From the NCBI GenBank assembly GCA_947627325.1, contig CANQVO010000001.1, positions 186,001 through 250,000 on the forward strand: DNA of 64,000 nucleotides, given 5' to 3'. Under the pieces are notes generated by a model. The model made no database searches and had not been told where the DNA came from. It saw only the letters and a program-made list of their open reading frames with translations. This DNA comes from an uncultured Oscillospiraceae bacterium. Its GTDB lineage: Bacteria > Bacillota > Clostridia > Oscillospirales > Oscillospiraceae. Every line of letters starts with the position of its first letter. The stretch's first letter is position 1. The translations under genes and the position numbers were made by a program. This document shows, in pieces, positions 1,606 through 34,278 of this stretch.

Positions 1606-2868
1606 TTAAGGATCTTGCCGCCCCGCTTCGCCGTGGATGATCCGCTTTACGGCGTCCAGAAGGCTTGTTTTCTCGTCCAGCTTCACCGTTTTGCAGCCGG
1701 CGGCTATGCCCGCCGCCACGTCACTGTCAGAGTCCCCGATCATCCAACTGGCGGACAGGTCGATGTTATACCGCTCCGCCGCCTGAAGGAGCAGGCCGGG
1801 CTTGGGCTTGCGGCAGGCGCAGTCCATCTTATACTCTGGCCGCTCCCCGGGGAACCCCTTGTCCGGGTGGTGGGGGCATACAAAAATGTCATCCAGGTAG
1901 GCCCCGCTCTGGCCCAGAAGGGTCTCCATCTTGCGGTGGATCTCCCGGAGCTCCTCCCAGGTGACCTCGCCCCGGGCGATGACGGGCTGGTTCGTGACCA
2001 CGATCGCCAGATATCCGCCGCGGTTGATATCGCGAATGGCCTCCGCCGCCCCGTCAAGGAGCGAAAAGTCCTGGATATCCCGCAAAAACCCAACGAACGG
2101 ATTGATCGTGCCATCCCGGTCCAGGAAGATGGCCCTCTGCTTTTGGCGCAGATTCCTGCTGTGCACAAAACCCGTCTGAAGGTCCCGCTCCACCTCCCGG
2201 ATCCGCTCGGGCGTGCCCATATCCTTCACATATTCCGGGGAGTGATAGGCGTAGAGCTTGCCGGAGGGGATGGCGGGCTTGAGGACGTCCCGGTCCAGGT
2301 CCGTCTTTTTCGGCTTCGTCAGCGTCTCCAGCATACGCGGCGACAGGATGTGTACGCCGGCGTTGACGCGATTGGAGTACCACGCGCGCTTGTCCTCCTT
2401 GGTCAGCCAGCCGCGCACACAGTTGGTTTCATCCGCGATGATGAGCCCGCTGTCATAGGGGTGGTCGTTGGGGTGGACCAGGAGGGTCGCGTCGGCATCC
2501 CGCGCTTTGTGAAACGCCATCATGCGGTGGAAGTCCACGTCGAAGATCATGTCTCCGTTGAGGAGAAGGAAATCGTCTGTCACTTTTCCCCGCAGGTAGT
2601 ACAGCGCCCCCGCCGTCCCCAGGGGGACCTCTTCCCGGACATACTCGATGTGGACGCCAAGGCGGCTCCCATCGCCAAAATAGGCGCAGATCTGATCGGC
2701 CAGATAGCCCACCGTCAGCACGATCCGGGTGATCCCCTGGCCCTTGAGGCAGAGGATCTCATGCTCCAGAACCGGCTTTCCCGCAACGGGGAGAAGGGGC
2801 TTTGGGACCGCGCTGTTCACCGAGGCGATCCGCGTCCCCTTCCCTCCCGCCATGATGACCGCAACCAT
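1606..2868 (-). CDS. hddC-gmhB: Fused heptose-1-phosphate guanylyltransferase / heptose-bisphosphate phosphatase
   Basis: Two enzymes in one 420-residue chain. Residues 1-235 form a sugar-phosphate nucleotidyltransferase with MAGGKGTR at 6-13 and PKPLLPVAGKP following, as in HddC. Residues 245-400 form a HAD phosphatase with DRDGT (250-254), VTNQP (291-295), the GmhB zinc signature CPHHP (331-335) with CACRKP (350-355), and GDSDSD (378-383). Together they would remove the C7 phosphate from D-glycero-D-manno-heptose 1,7-bisphosphate and make the GDP-sugar. GmhA and HddA, the other two steps, are directly upstream with 1-4 nt junctions, so the context fixes the pathway. The start at 2868 follows GGGGGATTG. 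Confidence 0.88.
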   Translation of the reverse strand: MVAVIMAGGKGTRIASVNSAVPKPLLPVAGKPVLEHEILCLKGQGITRIVLTVGYLADQICAYFGDGSRLGVHIEYVREEVPLGTAGALYYLRGKVTDDFLLLNGDMIFDVDFHRMMAFHKARDADATLLVHPNDHPYDSGLIIADETNCVRGWLTKEDKRAWYSNRVNAGVHILSPRMLETLTKPKKTDLDRDVLKPAIPSGKLYAYHSPEYVKDMGTPERIREVERDLQTGFVHSRNLRQKQRAIFLDRDGTINPFVGFLRDIQDFSLLDGAAEAIRDINRGGYLAIVVTNQPVIARGEVTWEELREIHRKMETLLGQSGAYLDDIFVCPHHPDKGFPGERPEYKMDCACRKPKPGLLLQAAERYNIDLSASWMIGDSDSDVAAGIAAGCKTVKLDEKTSLLDAVKRIIHGEAGRQDP

Positions 2869-2869
2869 A

Positions 2870-3499
2870 TCAATCCCCCCAGAACTGGCACTCCAACGCG
2901 GCGCAGAGGATATGGTAGAGGGTGGAGTGGATGTCTTGTATGTCCTCCGTGGCGGCGGCGGGGGCGATTAGGGTCAGATCGAAGGCGTCCTTCATCCTCC
3001 CGCCGTCACGGCCTGTCAGGCCGATGGTCCTCATCCCCATGGCCCGCGCGACCTCTCCGGCGTAGAGGACGTTCTTGGAGTTTCCAGAGGTGCTGATACC
3101 CAGAAGCACATCCTCCGGCCGCCCATAGCTGACGACCTGCTGGGCGAAGATATACTCGCCGCCCACATCGTTGACCATCGCCGTGAGCAGGGAGGTGTGC
3201 GCCCCCAAATCAATGGCGGGCAGGCCCCCCTGGAGCTTTTCGGCCAGCTCCGCGCTGGGCAGGGCGCTTTTCAGTTCCTCGCTCAACGGACGGTGGAGGC
3301 GAAAGGATTTGACCAGCTCTCCCACGATGTGGTCGGCGTCGGCGTTGCTGCCGCCGTTGCCGCAGACAAGGAGCTTTCCGCCGCGGCGGAAGGAGTCCTC
3401 CAGCAGTTCCACCGCCTGACGGAGCGCCGGTTCCAGCGGCGCTACAAAAGTATGCCGCGCCCGATATTTGTCAAACAGCGTTTCCGTACTCTTTTTCAT
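2870..3499 (-). CDS. gmhA: Phosphoheptose isomerase (SIS domain)
   Basis: A 209-residue SIS-fold protein that would convert sedoheptulose 7-phosphate to D-glycero-D-manno-heptose 7-phosphate, the first committed step of heptose nucleotide synthesis. The phosphosugar loop GNGGSNADADH is at 47-57, and ISTSGNSKN in the middle is the second SIS phosphate site. Length fits the family (190-210). The start overlaps the stop of hddA by 4 nt (ATGA), which implies translational coupling. Adjacent heptose kinase and guanylyltransferase/phosphatase genes support GmhA over the related DiaA/LpcA-like SIS proteins. Confidence 0.88.
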   Translation of the reverse strand: MKKSTETLFDKYRARHTFVAPLEPALRQAVELLEDSFRRGGKLLVCGNGGSNADADHIVGELVKSFRLHRPLSEELKSALPSAELAEKLQGGLPAIDLGAHTSLLTAMVNDVGGEYIFAQQVVSYGRPEDVLLGISTSGNSKNVLYAGEVARAMGMRTIGLTGRDGGRMKDAFDLTLIAPAAATEDIQDIHSTLYHILCAALECQFWGD

Positions 3500-4509
3500 A
3501 GGCCCTGCACCTTTCCCTTATTCGGGTCATAGATCTCCGGGACGTAGTATATGATCCTCACGCCGCCCTCCTCAAATCGGAAGGGGATCTCCATCAAATT
3601 CCCCAGGGCGCTTCGAACAGACGCCTTGTGCTCCTCCGGCACATAGAACAGCAGAAAGCCGCCGCCTCCGGCTCCCAGGAGCTTGCCCCCAAGTGCTCCG
3701 GCGGCCATCGCCCGGGCGTAATAGTCGTTGATCAGGGGGTTGGAGACCCTGCCGTTGACCTCTTGCTTCAGCCTCCACTCCTCATCCAGCAGGCGGCCAA
3801 AGTCATCCACCCGCCGCTCCACCAGCGCCTTCTCCGCCTCGTCCACCAGGCCCTTCATCCGCAGGAGCTGGCGCGTCTTCTGGTCGATGTTCTTCTCCTG
3901 CTCCGCCTGGAGCTCCGAGGAGAAGCGGGAAAGCCCGGTGAAAAACAGCAGCAGGTTGTCGTTCAGTCTGTCCTTTGTGTCCTTCCCGATCACCACCGGG
4001 CACACCTCGTAGCCGTTCGGCCCAAAGATGATCTTGTTGAAGCCGCCAAAGGACGCGGCGATCTGATCCTGGACCCCGCCCTTCTCGTTGCACAGCACAC
4101 GCTCCAGGTGGATCGCCTCGTCCGCCAATCTGCGCTTGTCCACATACTTTCCCTTCAGCGCGTAAAAGGCGGCCAGGAGCCCCACCGCAAAGGAGCTGCT
4201 GGTCCCCAGGCCGGTGCGTGCGGGAAGGTCAGCGTCGTAGAGCACGATCATATCGTGCATATCCATGGCCTTCATGGCCTCCCGGACCGCCGGGTGCTGG
4301 ATCTCGTCTACCTCCCGGGTCCGCTCGCATTTGGAGTAGGCAATATAGTTGGAGTAGTCAAAAAACGGGGGGAGATGCCGGACGGTCAGGTAGCAGTATT
4401 TGTCGAAACTGGTAGAGAGGACCTGCCCGCCATATTGCTCATAGAAGGCCGGGAAGTCCGTCCCCCCTCCAAAAAACGAAATGCGAAATGGAGTCTGTGT
4501 AATGACCAT
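3496..4509 (-). CDS. hddA: D-glycero-alpha-D-manno-heptose 7-phosphate kinase (GHMP family)
   Basis: A 337-residue GHMP kinase. The N-terminal strand TPFRISFFGGGTDFP (6-20) is the HddA/Fkp-type substrate strand, and the ATP loop GLGTSSSFAVG is at 100-110. A late glycine-rich segment (GKLLGAGGGGF) is GHMP motif 3. It would phosphorylate heptose 7-phosphate at the anomeric C1. It lies between a GT4 gene and gmhA and shares 4 nt with gmhA. AAAGGAGGGGGG upstream of the 4509 ATG supports this start. The alpha-anomer assignment rests on pairing with an HddC-type GDP transferase and is inferred. Confidence 0.87.
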   Translation of the reverse strand: MVITQTPFRISFFGGGTDFPAFYEQYGGQVLSTSFDKYCYLTVRHLPPFFDYSNYIAYSKCERTREVDEIQHPAVREAMKAMDMHDMIVLYDADLPARTGLGTSSSFAVGLLAAFYALKGKYVDKRRLADEAIHLERVLCNEKGGVQDQIAASFGGFNKIIFGPNGYEVCPVVIGKDTKDRLNDNLLLFFTGLSRFSSELQAEQEKNIDQKTRQLLRMKGLVDEAEKALVERRVDDFGRLLDEEWRLKQEVNGRVSNPLINDYYARAMAAGALGGKLLGAGGGGFLLFYVPEEHKASVRSALGNLMEIPFRFEEGGVRIIYYVPEIYDPNKGKVQGL

Positions 4510-29635: not shown

Positions 29636-30559
29636 TTAAAAGTCCAACAGGTTGTCATAGCTGGAGAACATCGCGTCCCCAAGGGACATACCCAGCACAT
29701 CCTCCGAGCAGGGGGTGTACGGGCAGTCGACCGCGTCGATCCTGGTTGGAAGAAACACGGAGAACATCGCCTCCTGCGGCGAGACGTAAGTGTTTTCCGA
29801 CCAGGTCCACTTGTTCTTCAAAACGTACTGCCCGTCCTCGGTCACATACCGCCCCACGTCATACATAAAGCGGAAGTACGCCACCATTCCATCGGGCACG
29901 GAGGGCTCCGCCTCGACAGGGCCGCCGTATTCCTCCTCGTACCTGGCGTAGAGCTCCTCCAGCTCCGCCTGGGTATACTCCAGGGCGATGCGCTCGGTGG
30001 CGTCGTCATCCACAGACCGGATCGACACCATGCGGATATAGGGGTCGGAGGAATAGGGGTATGCGGCGATCTGGTAGTACGCGCCCGGCTCGTCCGCATA
30101 GGAGATCCGCGCGGCCAATGCCTCACCGGCGTACTCCTTTACGGCGTGGACCCGGTATTCCCGCCCGTCTATGGTCTCTTCGTCGATCGTCAGCGGCATA
30201 TCATTGTCCTCCCAAAACCAGGGGCTGTACAGATATTCCGCCAACCTGAACTCCGCTTCCTCTTTCTTCAGCGCCGCGCCGGGCACATCCAGGAACTGGA
30301 AGTTCACCCCTGACCCGCTCTCATCGTAGTCGCTGTACTTCCGCTCCATGGGGGTCGGCGTCGGGGCCGGGGTCGGGGGCGGGGTCGGGGGCGGGGTCGG
30401 CGCCGGGGTCGGCGCCGGGGTCGGGGCGGATGCGGAGGCGGCCACCGCCGGCGGGACAGTTGTCTCCTGGGCCTTCCCGGCGGGTCGGCCGCCGCAGGCG
30501 GCAAGGCACAAGAGCGCCCCCGCCAGGGCCGCGCCGCATATCAACGATCTCTTTTTCAT
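29636..30559 (-). CDS. Lipoprotein with proline-threonine linker
   Basis: 307 residues. Lipoprotein signal MKKRSLICGAALAGALLCLAAC with lipobox LAAC. Residues ~45-70 are a PTPA/PTPP repeat encoded by 12-base DNA units (30350-30430), a spacer lifting the domain off the membrane. The ~235-residue globular part is rich in Tyr and acidic residues and has no motif I recognise. A conserved-looking pair EYAGEALAARISYADEPGAYYQIAAYPYS suggests a beta-sheet fold. The gene is 50 bases upstream of the SLH gene on the same strand and may be cotranscribed. Confidence 0.75.
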   Translation of the reverse strand: MKKRSLICGAALAGALLCLAACGGRPAGKAQETTVPPAVAASASAPTPAPTPAPTPPPTPPPTPAPTPTPMERKYSDYDESGSGVNFQFLDVPGAALKKEEAEFRLAEYLYSPWFWEDNDMPLTIDEETIDGREYRVHAVKEYAGEALAARISYADEPGAYYQIAAYPYSSDPYIRMVSIRSVDDDATERIALEYTQAELEELYARYEEEYGGPVEAEPSVPDGMVAYFRFMYDVGRYVTEDGQYVLKNKWTWSENTYVSPQEAMFSVFLPTRIDAVDCPYTPCSEDVLGMSLGDAMFSSYDNLLDF

Positions 30560-30652
30560 AGGCGCCCTCCTTATGGCAGATCGGATCTCCCTCGTCGGCC
30601 CGGGCTATTCCAGCACTTCGCCTCCATTTTAACGGCAGTTTACCAGGAATTG

Positions 30653-30669
30653 GTTAGCCGGCGGCTAAC
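30653..30669. promoter_or_regulatory. Palindrome GTTAGCC-N3-GGCTAAC, copy 1
   Basis: A perfect 7-3-7 inverted repeat 94 bases upstream of the lipoprotein start. No minus-strand T-run follows, so it is more like an operator than a terminator. The same arms recur at 34256-34272 beside the XRE genes. Confidence 0.45.
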
Positions 30670-30734
30670 TCTCTCGTTTTTTCGCCACAGGGCCCCCCGC
30701 CCCGGGGCCGTCCGGCCAGGCCAAAGCCCCCGCC

Positions 30735-30801
30735 GGGCCGGTGCGGCGGCGGTACAGGCATACAAAAGCAAGACAGGAGAGGCGTTCTCCTGTCTTGCTT
30801 T
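30735..30801 (-). repeat. Terminator-containing repeat, copy 2
   Basis: A near-identical copy of 27548-27620: same GCCGGGCCG/CGGCGGCGG lead-in, ACAGGCATA, and the perfect GCAAGACAGGAGA/TCTCCTGTCTTGC hairpin with A- and T-runs. Here it terminates the minus-strand AAA+ cassette that ends at 30811. Confidence 0.88.
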
Positions 30802-30810
30802 TTTCAGCGG

Positions 30811-31839
30811 TCAGTCGCAGAGGTCCGGGTCGTAAAAGCGGGGGTCGCCGCCCGCGTCAAGGCTGGCCATCGGCTTTGTGCTTTTCGCATACTGATAGGC
30901 GTGGTTATCCCAGGGCTTGTCGCTGAGATCCAGGTCCACAAAGGTGCCGTTCTCCACCATTGGGCCCAGGGCCTGGATGACAAACAGCTGGCCCCATCCA
31001 CTGCGGCCGTTTCGATCGACCAGGCCGAAAGGCTGCAGCGCTTTGAGCCGCACGATATCATCAGCCGACATGGGCGCCTTGTCCTTCATCGCCTCTTTGA
31101 CAGCCTCCCCCAGCCGCTCAAAGGCGGCCTTGCCGAGGTAGACCCGAGCGCTGTCCAGTTCCTCGAGCACCTGTTTCCCCTTGGCGCGGTCCCGCTTTAC
31201 CTCCGGGTCGCCACGGATGGCGTCCATCGCGACCTCCAAAAATTTTTTCGGGTAGAGCTGGTCTAATTTCTTTTTGATAAGCGCGCATTCCGTGCGTAAG
31301 GTGTGCTCGTTGGAGACGATCTCGCCGCTCTGCACAAGTTTTTCCAGCTCCTGGTCGTAGTAGTACTCCCGGGCCCTCAGACCGCTTCCGCAGTACGGGC
31401 TCACAGGCAGTCCACTGGCCACGGTCTCACGGAGGGCCTGGGCCTCTGAGCGGTGAAGGTACGGCCCTACCACCAGGAAAAATACGCCTCTGACCAAGCC
31501 CAGCGTGAAAATGGAGAGCACGCTCTTGGTGGCGTACAGCGGATCGACGCCCGCATTGCCCGCTTTGTAATAGCTGTCCCCCACAAGGATATCCCGGATG
31601 CAATCCAGGATGCACAGCGCCCACAGGATCCTCAGCAAGGGCAGAAACCCGGCGCCAAAGGGGCTGGAGCCAGAGATGAGGAAGCACGCCACAAAAAAGA
31701 TCGTCACCGCGGAGTTGACCTGGGGGTGAAAGAACAGGTTCCGGACAGCGGAGGCGGTCCCGTGCAAAATAGCGGAGATGAGCTTTTTGAGCACAAAGAA
31801 CGCCACGATGGCAATAATAATGTATACCAAAAGTATCAC
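30811..31839 (-). CDS. Membrane protein of the AAA+ cassette, unknown function
   Basis: 342 residues. Hydrophobic N-terminus (~2-20), further helices at about 43-62, 66-85 and 108-130, then a ~205-residue cytoplasm-like part that is charged and helical, with long Lys/Glu stretches (ELEKLVQSGEIVSNEHTLRTE, IKKKLDQLYPKKFLEVAMDAI). A Pro/Tyr-rich tail ends GGDPRFYDPDLCD. No named family recognised. It starts within the stop of the 139-residue gene (ATGA), so it is translationally coupled to the cassette, and it closes the operon. Confidence 0.72.
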   Translation of the reverse strand: MILLVYIIIAIVAFFVLKKLISAILHGTASAVRNLFFHPQVNSAVTIFFVACFLISGSSPFGAGFLPLLRILWALCILDCIRDILVGDSYYKAGNAGVDPLYATKSVLSIFTLGLVRGVFFLVVGPYLHRSEAQALRETVASGLPVSPYCGSGLRAREYYYDQELEKLVQSGEIVSNEHTLRTECALIKKKLDQLYPKKFLEVAMDAIRGDPEVKRDRAKGKQVLEELDSARVYLGKAAFERLGEAVKEAMKDKAPMSADDIVRLKALQPFGLVDRNGRSGWGQLFVIQALGPMVENGTFVDLDLSDKPWDNHAYQYAKSTKPMASLDAGGDPRFYDPDLCD

Positions 31840-32255
31840 TCCACAGCGTATTTGATTTCTCCCGCGGTGTTCAGCTCCTCCAGCGTCTCCAAAGTGAATC
31901 GGGCCGCCGGAATGTCACAGGCCGCGTCCGCCTTTTGCCACTTTTCAGCGGCGTCCAAAAAGAAGAGGCAGAAAGACAGGGTCACCATGTTCTGCTTGCC
32001 CGCGGACATGGCGAGCTTGATCTCCCCTCCCACATAGCGCATATCCTGCTCCGCCACGATCCGATCCTTGAGCGCGTCTACTGTGCCGATGACAACGTCG
32101 GCCCACTCCTCGGCGGACATCCTTCCGGCGATCTTCCCGCGGATGGCGCCTTGGGCCGCGTCCACGGCAATTCCGCCGGCCTCCTCAACGATCGGCGCCA
32201 CCGTGGCCTTCAGCGCGCTTTTTGCCAACGCGGCCAGCGCCCCTGTCACAAGCAT
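31836..32255 (-). CDS. Small helical protein of the AAA+ cassette, unknown function
   Basis: 139 residues from the ATG at 32255, which has GAGGAGGGG in front; a frame opening at 32279 would start in the upstream gene. Residues 1-50 are Ala/Gly-rich and weakly amphipathic (MLVTGALAALAKSALKATVA, AAQGAIRGKIAGRM), a pattern seen in membrane-associating or helical-bundle proteins. The rest is an ordinary soluble helical sequence with one Cys pair (SFCLFFLDAAEKW, DAACDI). No catalytic motif. The stop overlaps the start of the 342-residue membrane protein. Confidence 0.68.
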   Translation of the reverse strand: MLVTGALAALAKSALKATVAPIVEEAGGIAVDAAQGAIRGKIAGRMSAEEWADVVIGTVDALKDRIVAEQDMRYVGGEIKLAMSAGKQNMVTLSFCLFFLDAAEKWQKADAACDIPAARFTLETLEELNTAGEIKYAVE

Positions 32256-32268
32256 ATTTGACCCCTCC

Positions 32269-32622
32269 TCACGCGCCAATGGCCAGGCTCAGTTCCTCGG
32301 TGGTGGATACCTCTGTCTCCATGGGCGCTCTGCGTACCTTGGCCAGGATCTCCGCGGGGACCTCGCTCTCGTCCACAGCTTTGGTGTAGACGACCTCCTG
32401 CCACTCCCGGGTCACCTGCTCTTTGTAGTAATATTTCGAGCGGTTCTTCAACCCCTCGGCGGTTTGGGTGATGAAGGTCCGGGTCCCCTCCGGGGCCAGG
32501 CCCAGCGCCTCCTTGATCTTATTGGCGGCCTTCTTGATCCATCCGATGATGTTCTGCCAAAAGGCGACCAGGCCGGTAATGAGGGCGGCGGTCAGCCCAA
32601 AAATAATCGTAAGAGCAATCAT
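32269..32622 (-). CDS. Single-pass membrane protein of the AAA+ cassette
   Basis: 117 residues. One N-terminal membrane helix (IALTIIFGLTAALITGLVAF, ~2-21), an amphipathic basic helix (WIKKAANKIKEALGL), and a soluble region with RTFITQTAEGLKNRSKYYYKEQVTREWQEVV. The start overlaps the AAA+ ATPase stop by 4 nt. No recognised family. The arrangement suggests a membrane partner or adaptor of the ATPase, which is inference from coupling. Confidence 0.68.
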   Translation of the reverse strand: MIALTIIFGLTAALITGLVAFWQNIIGWIKKAANKIKEALGLAPEGTRTFITQTAEGLKNRSKYYYKEQVTREWQEVVYTKAVDESEVPAEILAKVRRAPMETEVSTTEELSLAIGA

Positions 32623-33590
32623 TTTGACACATCTCCTCTTAATTGTTTTTTGACATATTCTTCACTGACGGTGCGCCTGGAGGTCAGCGTGCCCAACTCG
32701 CTGTTCTCCTCCTTGCTGGCCACGATCCGCTGGATGGCCTGCTCAAAATAGGCGTGGCGGACAAGGCCCTCCCCCAGCCGCGCCGCCCGCAGCGCGGCGT
32801 TCAACACAGCGGTGGAAATATCCGACCCCGAGATGCCCGGGTATTGGGCGCTCAATCTCGGAATATCCACGTCGGTGGGCATTTGCGGGGGGATGTACCT
32901 GCGCCACAGCTTGGCCCGGTTTTCCTCGTCAGGCAGTTCAAATTTCACATGGGAGCGTATCCTGCGCAGGAACGCCGGGTCATAGTTGGCGATAAAGTTC
33001 GACGCGAACAAAACCAGGTCGTCATATTCGCTGAGCAGTAGGAGCAGGACGGACCGGGTCTGATTTACACTGACGTCGGTGGAGTTGCTCATGTTCGTGA
33101 CCCGCCGGCTCAGCAGGGCGTCAGCCTCATCAAAAAACAGGATCGACCGGGTCCTTTTCGCGCAGTCGAACATGGACACAAGGTTCTTGGCCGTCTCCCC
33201 CACATACTTGGACTCTATCTGGGAGTAGTCCACGCAGAGGATCTTTCGGCCCAGCTGGCCGGCAATGGCGTGGGCCGCCATGCTTTTCCCCGTGCCGGAA
33301 GGGCCGTAGAGGTTTATCCCGCCCTGCCGCTGTTTTCTGTGGGTGTTCTCCAGCCCCCACTGCCCAAACAACAGTTCCCGCTTTTCGTAGAGCGCAAGCG
33401 CGTCTTGGATGGCGTCGTAGGTGGCGGGGGGAAGGATCATCTCCTCAAAGCTGTATTGCGGCTCCACCGCTGGAAAGGGACAGGCCTCCGCCGGCGCTTC
33501 CACGGGCGCGGGCCGCGCGGGAGCCGTATCCTTCTCCGCGGCGGGTCCCTGGCCCTCGGCAGAAGAGGTAATTCGTCTCCCAAGGGGCAT
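32619..33590 (-). CDS. AAA+ ATPase
   Basis: 323 residues with GGAGGTGATACC before the ATG. Residues 1-45 are low-complexity Pro/Ala/Glu. A classical AAA core follows: Walker A GPSGTGKS (96-103), ESKYVGET pore-loop-like segment (126-133), Walker B ILFFDEAD (150-157), sensor-1 ASN (196-198), arginine fingers in DPAFLRRIRSH (204-214) and sensor-2 GISGSDIS (252-259). Most like spastin/FtsH-type remodelling AAA proteins, but with no protease domain. It probably unfolds or assembles a partner at the membrane, the partners being the three genes that follow. Confidence 0.9.
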   Translation of the reverse strand: MPLGRRITSSAEGQGPAAEKDTAPARPAPVEAPAEACPFPAVEPQYSFEEMILPPATYDAIQDALALYEKRELLFGQWGLENTHRKQRQGGINLYGPSGTGKSMAAHAIAGQLGRKILCVDYSQIESKYVGETAKNLVSMFDCAKRTRSILFFDEADALLSRRVTNMSNSTDVSVNQTRSVLLLLLSEYDDLVLFASNFIANYDPAFLRRIRSHVKFELPDEENRAKLWRRYIPPQMPTDVDIPRLSAQYPGISGSDISTAVLNAALRAARLGEGLVRHAYFEQAIQRIVASKEENSELGTLTSRRTVSEEYVKKQLRGDVSK

Positions 33591-33620
33591 GGTATCACCT
33601 CCGTTCTTCCCCGCGCGCTG

Positions 33621-33779
33621 TTACCTCTCCTCCCACCTTGGGCTATGCTTTCCGTTGGGGGCGCTGGGGCATTTTCCGGGGATCGTGGGCGTAAAAGCCG
33701 GTTTCCGCCCGCTGGCGGTCGTCTGTTGGCTCCCCCGCTTCCCGCAGAATTGACAGACCGCGACCCAAGATGTGGCCAT
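33621..33779 (-). CDS. 52-residue zinc-ribbon microprotein, first gene of the AAA+ cassette
   Basis: An ATG at 33779 with GGGAGGAG eight bases upstream opens a 52-codon frame to TAA at 33621. The peptide begins MATSWVAVCQFCGKRGSQ and ends GKCPSAPNGKHSPRWEER. Cys9 and Cys12 (CQFC) with Cys37 (GKC) and His45 (GKH) form a plausible zinc knuckle, and the P-G-K-C...G-K-H-x-P-x-W ending is a pattern I have seen in short hypothetical proteins of Firmicutes. It is promoter-proximal, 30 bases before the AAA+ gene. Function unknown; an adaptor or nucleic-acid-binding role is possible. Confidence 0.78.
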   Translation of the reverse strand: MATSWVAVCQFCGKRGSQQTTASGRKPAFTPTIPGKCPSAPNGKHSPRWEER

Positions 33780-33812
33780 GTGAAACTCCTCCCTTTCTCG
33801 TCTTAATATATT

Positions 33813-33833
33813 AGATAACGTTTATCGTTATCT
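33813..33833. promoter_or_regulatory. Inverted-repeat operator of the AAA+ cassette
   Basis: AGATAACG-TTTAT-CGTTATCT, perfect 8-bp arms, lies 9-29 bases downstream of the minus-strand -10 box and 64 bases upstream of the divergent XRE start. This is a classic place for repression by the adjacent XRE protein. Confidence 0.75.
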
Positions 33834-33841
33834 TTCGACAT

Positions 33842-33870
33842 ATTCTACCACACCTTTTTTCCATTTACAA
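33842..33870 (-). promoter_or_regulatory. Promoter of the AAA+ cassette
   Basis: TTGTAA (33870-33865), a 17-base spacer and TAGAAT (33847-33842), 63 bases before the microprotein ATG. It sits in an unusually AT-rich island. Confidence 0.75.
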
Positions 33871-33896
33871 TAGCAAATTGGAGGTGCTATACGATA

Positions 33897-34235
33897 ATGG
33901 AGAAAAAACAGCTTGTGGAAATTGGCCGCCGTCTGCGCCAGCGGCGGAGCGAGCTGGGTCTGACCCGGGAGAAAATGTCCGAGCTGGCCGATATCGGCGC
34001 GGGTTACTATGGTCAGCTGGAGGTGGGCACCTCTCAGATGTCGGTGGACACCCTTTTGAAGCTGTCGGGGGCCATGCACCTGCCCATGGAATACATCCTG
34101 CTGGGCGAGGGCTGGGAGCCCGGGGATCCCGACCCGGTCATCGACCTTTTACGGCACTGCACCCCCAGGGAGTTGAAGCTGGCCCAGGAGGTCCTGACGC
34201 TCTTTTTGGCGAAACAGGACCCTATGGGATCTTAA
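33897..34235 (+). CDS. XRE-family regulator divergent from the AAA+ cassette
   Basis: 112 residues. The helix-turn-helix spans ~8-62 (IGRRLRQRRSELGLTREKMSELADIGAGYYGQLEVGTSQMSV...LLKLSGAM). The C-terminal half (EYILLGEG..., TPRELKLAQEVLTLFL) is a short dimerisation-like helix. GGAGGTGC precedes the ATG at an 11-base distance. It is divergent from the microprotein/AAA+ operon with a perfect palindrome between the two, so it is most likely its repressor. A terminator hairpin follows at 34250. Confidence 0.85.
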   Translation: MEKKQLVEIGRRLRQRRSELGLTREKMSELADIGAGYYGQLEVGTSQMSVDTLLKLSGAMHLPMEYILLGEGWEPGDPDPVIDLLRHCTPRELKLAQEVLTLFLAKQDPMGS

Positions 34236-34249
34236 CACGGGAAAAAAGC

Positions 34250-34278
34250 AAAAAGGTTAGCCACCGGCTAACCTTTTT
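34250..34278 (+). terminator. Terminator of the XRE gene; contains GTTAGCC palindrome copy 2
   Basis: AAAAAGGTTAGCC-ACC-GGCTAACCTTTTT, a perfect 13-bp hairpin with a U-tract, 14 bases after the XRE stop. A TATAAT box (34283-34288) directly follows and probably starts the next gene; its -35 is weak. Confidence 0.82.

Follow-up and report, generated by a model that had tools for sequence, protein, structure and literature searches.

What kind of system is formed when an AAA+ ATPase shares an operon with a Cys/His microprotein and three proteins of no nameable family? This question is raised by a locus in a 64,000-nucleotide stretch of DNA, referred to here as the window, from an uncultured Oscillospiraceae bacterium (GCA_947627325.1, contig CANQVO010000001.1, positions 186,001 to 250,000). 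Five minus-strand open reading frames, read from the window sequence between positions 33779 and 30811 and all intact, encode the microprotein of 52 amino acids (aa), the ATPase, and proteins of 117, 139 and 342 aa. They are referred to here as the cassette. The spacings between them are, in operon order, +30, -4, +13 and -4 nucleotides, and a purine-rich Shine-Dalgarno-like sequence precedes four of the five genes. An XRE-type regulator gene (XRE1) diverges from them. The place, strand, overlaps and short gaps given in the initial annotation are all recovered. Our analysis gives about even chances to the reading that the cassette is a mobile accessory operon for a machine that sits on the cytoplasmic side of the membrane and uses ATP to thread proteins, thereby remodelling or unfolding them. 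What is observed directly in the sequence is which genes are present, how far they are conserved, how rare and mobile they are, their domain content and the linkage to a kinase.

Conservation of the gene set

The five-gene order is conserved above chance, as far as can be judged from sequence, because the genes recur jointly in unrelated genomes. Four ATPases were used as queries against 84,980 species genomes. This yielded 80 loci, 47 of which form a core clade defined by an ATPase score of at least 290 bits; a full-length ATPase (at least 304 residues) is encoded in 27 of them. The 117-aa family directly follows the ATPase in 32 of the 47 core-clade genome loci, and where the ATPase is full-length, the 117-aa and 139-aa families are both present in 25 of 27 loci. 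In a cross-genome search of the kind suggested in the initial annotation, the genes are conserved as a set. Around the distant, non-core ATPases of genomes, neither small family was detected, save for one weak 117-aa match (L059); both accompany a non-core ATPase on a Comamonas plasmid (L008). On a plasmid of Moraxella osloensis, a translated search recovered the order ATPase, protein of about 117 aa with one membrane helix, protein of about 130 aa and variable protein; the same four-gene order is found on a 10-kb Comamonas plasmid. The cassette is distributed over several phyla and plasmids. Homologues of the 342-aa protein occur in five loci (L012, L013, L014, L016 and L017); the fourth gene of other lineages encodes a different protein, often with membrane helices.

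Among the proteins of the cassette and XRE1, only the ATPase and the XRE protein match named families in Pfam, NCBIfam, PADLOC and PHROGs. The three partner proteins and the microprotein have no usable match in these four libraries, in keeping with the initial annotation, and a literature search limited to open-licence papers found no published description of the gene set. The coordinates of the cassette and of its neighbouring features are collected in Table 1.

Table 1. Cassette genes, neighbouring genes and regulatory sequences in the window.
Feature	Position	Strand	Remarks
52-aa Cys/His microprotein (CxxCGK...PGKCP...GKHxxxW)	33621-33779	-	Open reading frame; leading gene of the operon
AAA+ ATPase, 323 aa	32619-33590	-	Single classical AAA domain; Pfam AAA, 1.6e-24
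117-aa protein	32269-32622	-	A single hydrophobic helix at the N terminus, then an amphipathic region and a small C-terminal domain
139-aa protein	31836-32255	-	Helical N-terminal part and β-β-β-α-β C-terminal domain (AlphaFold2 model)
342-aa membrane protein, GTG start	30811-31839	-	About four membrane helices, then likely tandem winged-helix domains; conserved acidic C-terminal tail
XRE1 regulator, 112 aa	33897-34235	+	HTH_3, 5.1e-8; divergent from the cassette
XRE2 regulator, 142 aa	34309-34737	+	HTH_31, 1.6e-6
Ser/Thr protein kinase, 411 aa	34775-36010	-	Pkinase, 1.7e-26; predicted membrane segment; upstream of the cassette on the same strand
Perfect 8-bp-arm palindrome AGATAACG-TTTAT-CGTTATCT	33813-33833		Probable operator of the divergent XRE1
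Promoter-like -35/-10 of the cassette operon	33842-33870	-	Consensus match only
Palindrome GTTAGCC-N3-GGCTAAC, copy 1	30653-30669		Just past the cassette and ahead of the lipoprotein gene at 29636-30559
Palindrome GTTAGCC-N3-GGCTAAC, copy 2	34256-34272		Upstream of XRE2

The ATPase and its relatives

The ATPase belongs to the classical AAA+ proteins, scoring 87.3 bits against a PF00004 cut-off of 21.2. It has a Walker A motif (GPSGTGKS), a Walker B motif (ILFFDEAD), a pore-loop-like SKYVGET and, in the alignment, a conserved Arg-Arg pair (AFLRRI), and ends in the tail SRRTVSEEYVKKQL. It matches PHROG 3757 at 5.9e-59, and its closest solved structures are AAA proteins of the Cdc48 type. Family scans found the Walker motifs intact and no protease or nuclease domain fused to the protein, as had been noted in the initial annotation.

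The best named models for the ATPase, the proteasome-activating nucleotidase and IetA, fall far under their cut-offs, the latter being the best NCBIfam/PADLOC model, yet reaching 111.7 bits against a cut-off of 510. The IetAS system, in which the AAA+ protein IetA is combined with the serine protease IetS, resembles the cassette in this match and in its compact operon; the cassette, in contrast, contains no protease family in any of its proteins and has three membrane or adaptor partners instead, so we do not assign it to IetAS. An assignment to FtsH, which is likewise an AAA+ protein working at the membrane, was also rejected: the cassette ATPase has no M41 peptidase match and no fused membrane helices, the FtsH model scores 91.5 of 600 bits through its AAA part only, and FtsH-like sequences fall far outside in the tree. 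The ternary MoxR-vWA conflict systems (PMC7159879) share with the cassette an AAA+ core, several helper genes and variable effectors; the cassette ATPase, however, is classical (PF00004) rather than MoxR, and no vWA co-chaperone gene and no vWA or MoxR match is found among the cassette proteins, so we discarded this assignment too.

Of the 51 ATPase domains placed in a maximum-likelihood tree, those of the core clade and those of extracellular contractile injection systems (eCIS) each group together on their own side of a branch supported at 98/99; three of the eCIS sequences come from annotated contractile-system loci. The core clade mixes phyla, with Treponema inside the Selenomonadaceae and a Synergistaceae sequence among Clostridia and Sporomusa; this mixing of organisms points to horizontal transfer of the ATPase.

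Among the nearest named relatives, in searches as well as in the tree, are the classical AAA+ loading ATPases of contractile injection systems (Pvc15/Afp15). Pvc15 has been tied to the selective handling of tagged proteins: it picks its cargo by short peptides at the N terminus and has an N-domain similar to regulators of the winged-helix type (PMC11495950). The cassette ATPase might accordingly be imagined to thread tagged cargo into a membrane-bound assembly, a counterpart of the contractile tube into which Pvc15 threads its signal-peptide cargo. In addition to these relatives, such a reading can draw on the tail motif RxVSEEYVK, which recurs in a few accessory proteins (for example, an acyl-carrier-like protein in L021, and L028_2480), and on a weak match of the 139-aa model to gp25, TssE and phage sheath domains (Z 4.7-5.9), a lead only, since Z values below 8 may reflect a common arrangement. 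However, Pvc15 has an N-D1-D2 architecture, whereas the cassette ATPase has one AAA stretch, lies outside the eCIS clade and is accompanied by membrane-bound partners, and no sheath, tube or baseplate gene was found among the nine window proteins scanned, which covers the nearby genes only. We therefore rejected the cassette as an eCIS, and we regard a kinship in function with injection-system loading as improbable.

Recognition of cargo through a short tag is an attractive idea for the cassette ATPase by analogy, because Pvc15 of the neighbouring clade selects its cargo by short peptides (PMC11495950), and it is unproven. The RxVSE motif as a free tag carried by many proteins was discarded, as a mere handful of cases turned up outside the ATPases and adaptors, all or nearly all of them in Selenomonadaceae; part of the motif may be a strand-plus-helix of the adaptor domain. 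Acyl-carrier-like proteins lie within two related operons (L021 7967-8299 and L033 8470-8784), and the one in L021 ends in RxVSEDYVK.

The surroundings of other related ATPases are varied. On a Streptomyces plasmid (L011), adaptor-like small proteins precede the ATPase, which is followed by a CHAT-domain protein of about 1200 aa, and on a Lactobacillus paragasseri plasmid (L010) a related ATPase closes a lantibiotic-dehydratase/AMP-binding gene cluster. Distant ATPases of Bacteroidota, Metabacillus and cyanobacteria (L060-L066, L108) come after arrays of two to five small proteins of about 95-175 aa, and on a Planktothrix plasmid a DUF87 protein follows a distant ATPase.

The partner proteins

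The microprotein has direct homologues in L012 and L015. In L019, L020 and L035, its zinc-ribbon pattern is also seen directly ahead of the AAA gene, and cysteine-rich small proteins of other types stand upstream of the ATPase in L013, L014, L016 and L017. Small CxxCxxxCC (YkgJ-like) proteins adjoin related ATPases in five genomes (L019 10644, L030 8774, L031 2229, L053 7899 and L059 8484).

On iteration, the 117-aa family comprises 57 members, which nearly always adjoin an AAA gene; the alignment of its C-terminal domain shows the pattern YY..W.E..T..(V/I)..S(E/D)VP..I. Six of 37 members match PF11396 (PepSY-like) weakly, with a best E of 0.0023, and the window protein does not. A phage-tail match, to the helical part of a tape-measure profile (PHROG 1272, E 1.6e-5), was judged to be amphipathic-helix likeness. 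Iterated profile searches with the 117-aa and 139-aa families merge, and their C-terminal parts align in profile-profile comparison with a probability of 81%, suggesting that the two domains are probably paralogous. The 139-aa model has a mean predicted local distance difference test (pLDDT) of 75.8, with low confidence for residues 1-27, and no clear fold relative was found for it with Foldseek against the PDB and viral models (none at E 0.001); a BrxA match of the sequence (E 0.016) was not usable. Searches of the partner sequences against solved structures gave nothing usable.

The model of the 342-aa protein (pLDDT 75.3, six sequences) shows helices and short strands after the membrane bundle, and it has no Foldseek match at E 0.001. 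With VIA-align, winged-helix matches fall on residues 124-319, namely the SelB winged helices (Z 8.3, 121 aa, 3.8 Å), Z-alpha (Z 6.6, 63 aa, 1.5 Å) and VPS25 of ESCRT-II (Z 6.6, 134 aa, 4.5 Å). According to the model, winged-helix domains are likely to be present in this protein, which does not imply nucleic-acid binding.

With one single-pass and one multi-pass partner, a membrane-linked remodelling complex, as suggested in the initial annotation, would be the natural reading. It could serve membrane house-keeping or envelope stress, a kinase-controlled ATPase extracting or remodelling damaged membrane proteins in the manner of ESCRT/Vps4 or Psp-type systems. The membrane anchors, the Cdc48-type structures, VPS25 among the winged-helix matches and the membrane segment of the neighbouring kinase are consistent with this, and there is a published precedent in the pairing of Snf7/PspA genes with AAA+ genes (PMC11237479). 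Vps4/ESCRT-III and the PspA-linked systems likewise combine a classical AAA+ protein with membrane-proximal proteins, and winged-helix proteins belong to ESCRT-II; in the cassette, by contrast, family scans detected neither an MIT domain nor a Snf7/PspA homologue, and its partners are unrelated in sequence, so that we did not classify it as a Psp/ESCRT system. Since the winged-helix matches are also middling and generic, and the system occurs in 1 of 391 genomes, unlike house-keeping, we hold this role to be rather unlikely. In none of these comparisons does the cassette turn out to be a described system under another name.

Rarity and mobility

Within the genus (six genomes), the ATPase is found at high identity only in the window genome and in G251. 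The 342-aa protein occurs in 1 of 250 genomes of the family, and the ATPase in 1 of 391 genomes of the class at E 1e-55. A cassette-free site is preserved in the congener G152, where about 30 bases separate the lipoprotein gene (window 30592) from what remains of an internally deleted XRE1 (window 33872). A plasmid-borne cassette adjoins toxin-antitoxin genes, a prophage-borne AAA gene lies at the end of Moraxella phage Mcat5, and in L014 a tyrosine recombinase is located directly upstream of the cassette. A macrodomain fused to an XRE2-like helix-turn-helix is encoded further upstream in that locus (L014 3601-4677), with the recombinase in between. Rarity, patchiness and plasmid carriage suggest an accessory role.

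These features also bear on anti-phage defence, which the initial annotation had offered as a guess. A phage signal, possibly relayed by the kinase, would be sensed by the ATPase ring, which would then activate the multi-pass protein, leading to membrane damage and abortive infection. The patchy distribution across phyla, the toxin-antitoxin genes next to the plasmid copy, the Mcat5 and L014 contexts, a variable fourth gene that resembles exchangeable effectors and the distant likeness of the ATPase to IetA are what such a system might present. On the other hand, no defence island surrounds the related loci: when 74 flanking proteins were scanned with PADLOC, the matches were two LeoA-type GTPases and hits of the kinase type that every kinase can be expected to produce. 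The cassette has no nuclease, NADase or protease effector, and it misses the IetA model by far. A defence role is not established, and we consider it possible but doubtful.

Gain and loss between congeners, together with plasmid carriage, might also describe a selfish or neutral passenger, that is, an addiction-like or decaying mobile cassette with no benefit to the host. The partners and the gene order, however, are kept over large divergence and all reading frames are intact, which makes this very unlikely.

A kinase and a second regulator next to the cassette

The Ser/Thr kinase and the second XRE gene (XRE2) beside the cassette, which the initial annotation did not mention, also accompany the cassette in other genomes. 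Among the 34 core loci with sufficient upstream sequence, six (L013, L016, L019, L020, L025 and L026) carry kinases of the same type 1.2-5.3 kb upstream of the ATPase on the same strand, each adjoined by an XRE2 homologue; no kinase turned up near the distant ATPase loci. The genomes concerned hold one to three such kinases (at least 140 bits), and the linked copies were confirmed on the same contigs. For each locus, the probability that a kinase falls within these few kilobases is about 0.002-0.015, which corresponds to about 0.3 expected cases against the six seen, a figure that ignores the shared ancestry of some of the loci; the linkage is far above chance. A kinase stands beside XRE2 in 10 of 12 inspected loci, none of which has the AAA gene. 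Because the XRE2-kinase pair also exists alone, it is, judging from gene content, a frequent neighbour and not a component of the cassette. Pairs of a kinase gene and a small XRE gene, usually divergent, are frequent in the family without the AAA cassette (L135, L137, L139-L146).

Palindromes and regulation

The palindrome at 33813-33833 confirms the perfect repeat that had been reported near the -10 box of the operon. Even when up to two mismatches are allowed, 0.01 occurrences would be expected in the window, and the 2.3-Mb genome contains a single copy. The promoter-like site (TTGTAA-17-TAGAAT, with TG ahead of the second hexamer) stops at 33842, short of the palindrome by a few bases, and is a weak match (9 of 12 consensus positions) of a kind expected about once in a stretch of this size.

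The proposal that the cassette has its own repressor stands in part. The palindrome, which has no second copy in the genome, faces the operon, and AGATAACGTTTATCGTTATCT is the putative target DNA of XRE1. However, the congener G207 keeps XRE1 and a near-identical palindrome, which there precede an unrelated membrane protein with zinc ribbons that stands in place of the cassette, G152 lost the cassette together with part of XRE1, and in G039 an XRE1 homologue adjoins the XRE2/kinase pair with no AAA gene there. The case for XRE1 as a dedicated cassette repressor is weakened by G207 and G039. The replacement in G207 (L130 ~2295-3740) is encoded by an open frame of 481 codons and combines zinc ribbons at its N terminus with membrane segments.

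The palindrome GTTAGCC-N3-GGCTAAC is present in exactly two copies genome-wide, which bracket the cassette and XRE1. By their position these are plausible XRE2 sites, GTTAGCCNNNGGCTAAC being the putative XRE2 target DNA. In G077 (L131 4603-6306), the XRE2 segment beside the kinase is inverted relative to the window, and the junction resembles window 30610-30736; an inversion between these palindromes is possible.

A proposed membrane-bound threading machine

We infer that the ATPase assembles into a ring, presumably a hexamer, that would draw polypeptides through its pore. The 117-aa protein would provide docking by tethering this ring to the membrane, and its C-terminal domain, like that of the 139-aa protein, may act as an adaptor that presents or grips clients. 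The 342-aa protein would be the membrane client or effector, with its winged-helix domains in the cytoplasm, to be switched or disassembled by the ATPase, and the microprotein a zinc-binding accessory. XRE1, bound at the palindrome, would set expression, and the kinase/XRE2 pair, sensing envelope or infection stress, would probably be coupled, through phosphorylation, to the activity of the machine. The net role would most likely be a conflict or stress response on mobile DNA.

It is important to consider that several findings weigh against this threading machine. The sequence of the fourth gene varies between lineages, and about 15 AAA proteins of the clade in Selenomonadaceae, mostly short and several of them beside housekeeping genes, stand without partners, so the AAA protein can act alone. 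The kinase pair is not present in 28 of the 34 core loci with enough upstream sequence, XRE2 is found in 33 of 120 genomes of the family, and the pair is common without the cassette. Finally, the structure models are of moderate confidence, with no complex among them.

A more specific and quite unlikely version of the threading machine would make it a kinase-linked membrane machine of a new category, in which an AAA+ ring on paralogous single-domain adaptors drives a winged-helix membrane effector. Its clients would be recognised via a short modular tag (RxVSEEYVK / RxVSExxVP) common to the ATPase tail, adaptor and cargo, as a membrane-bound counterpart of injection-system loading.

If the proposed threading machine is correct, the cassette would represent an AAA+ system that has not been described before and spreads by horizontal transfer. 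Three of its protein families are absent from the searched libraries, and in several lineages it is physically linked to a pair of Ser/Thr kinase and regulator. A membrane-anchored branch would then stand next to the loading ATPases of contractile injection systems, and the cassette would provide a compact gene set for ATP-driven remodelling of bacterial membrane proteins and possibly a new defence mechanism.

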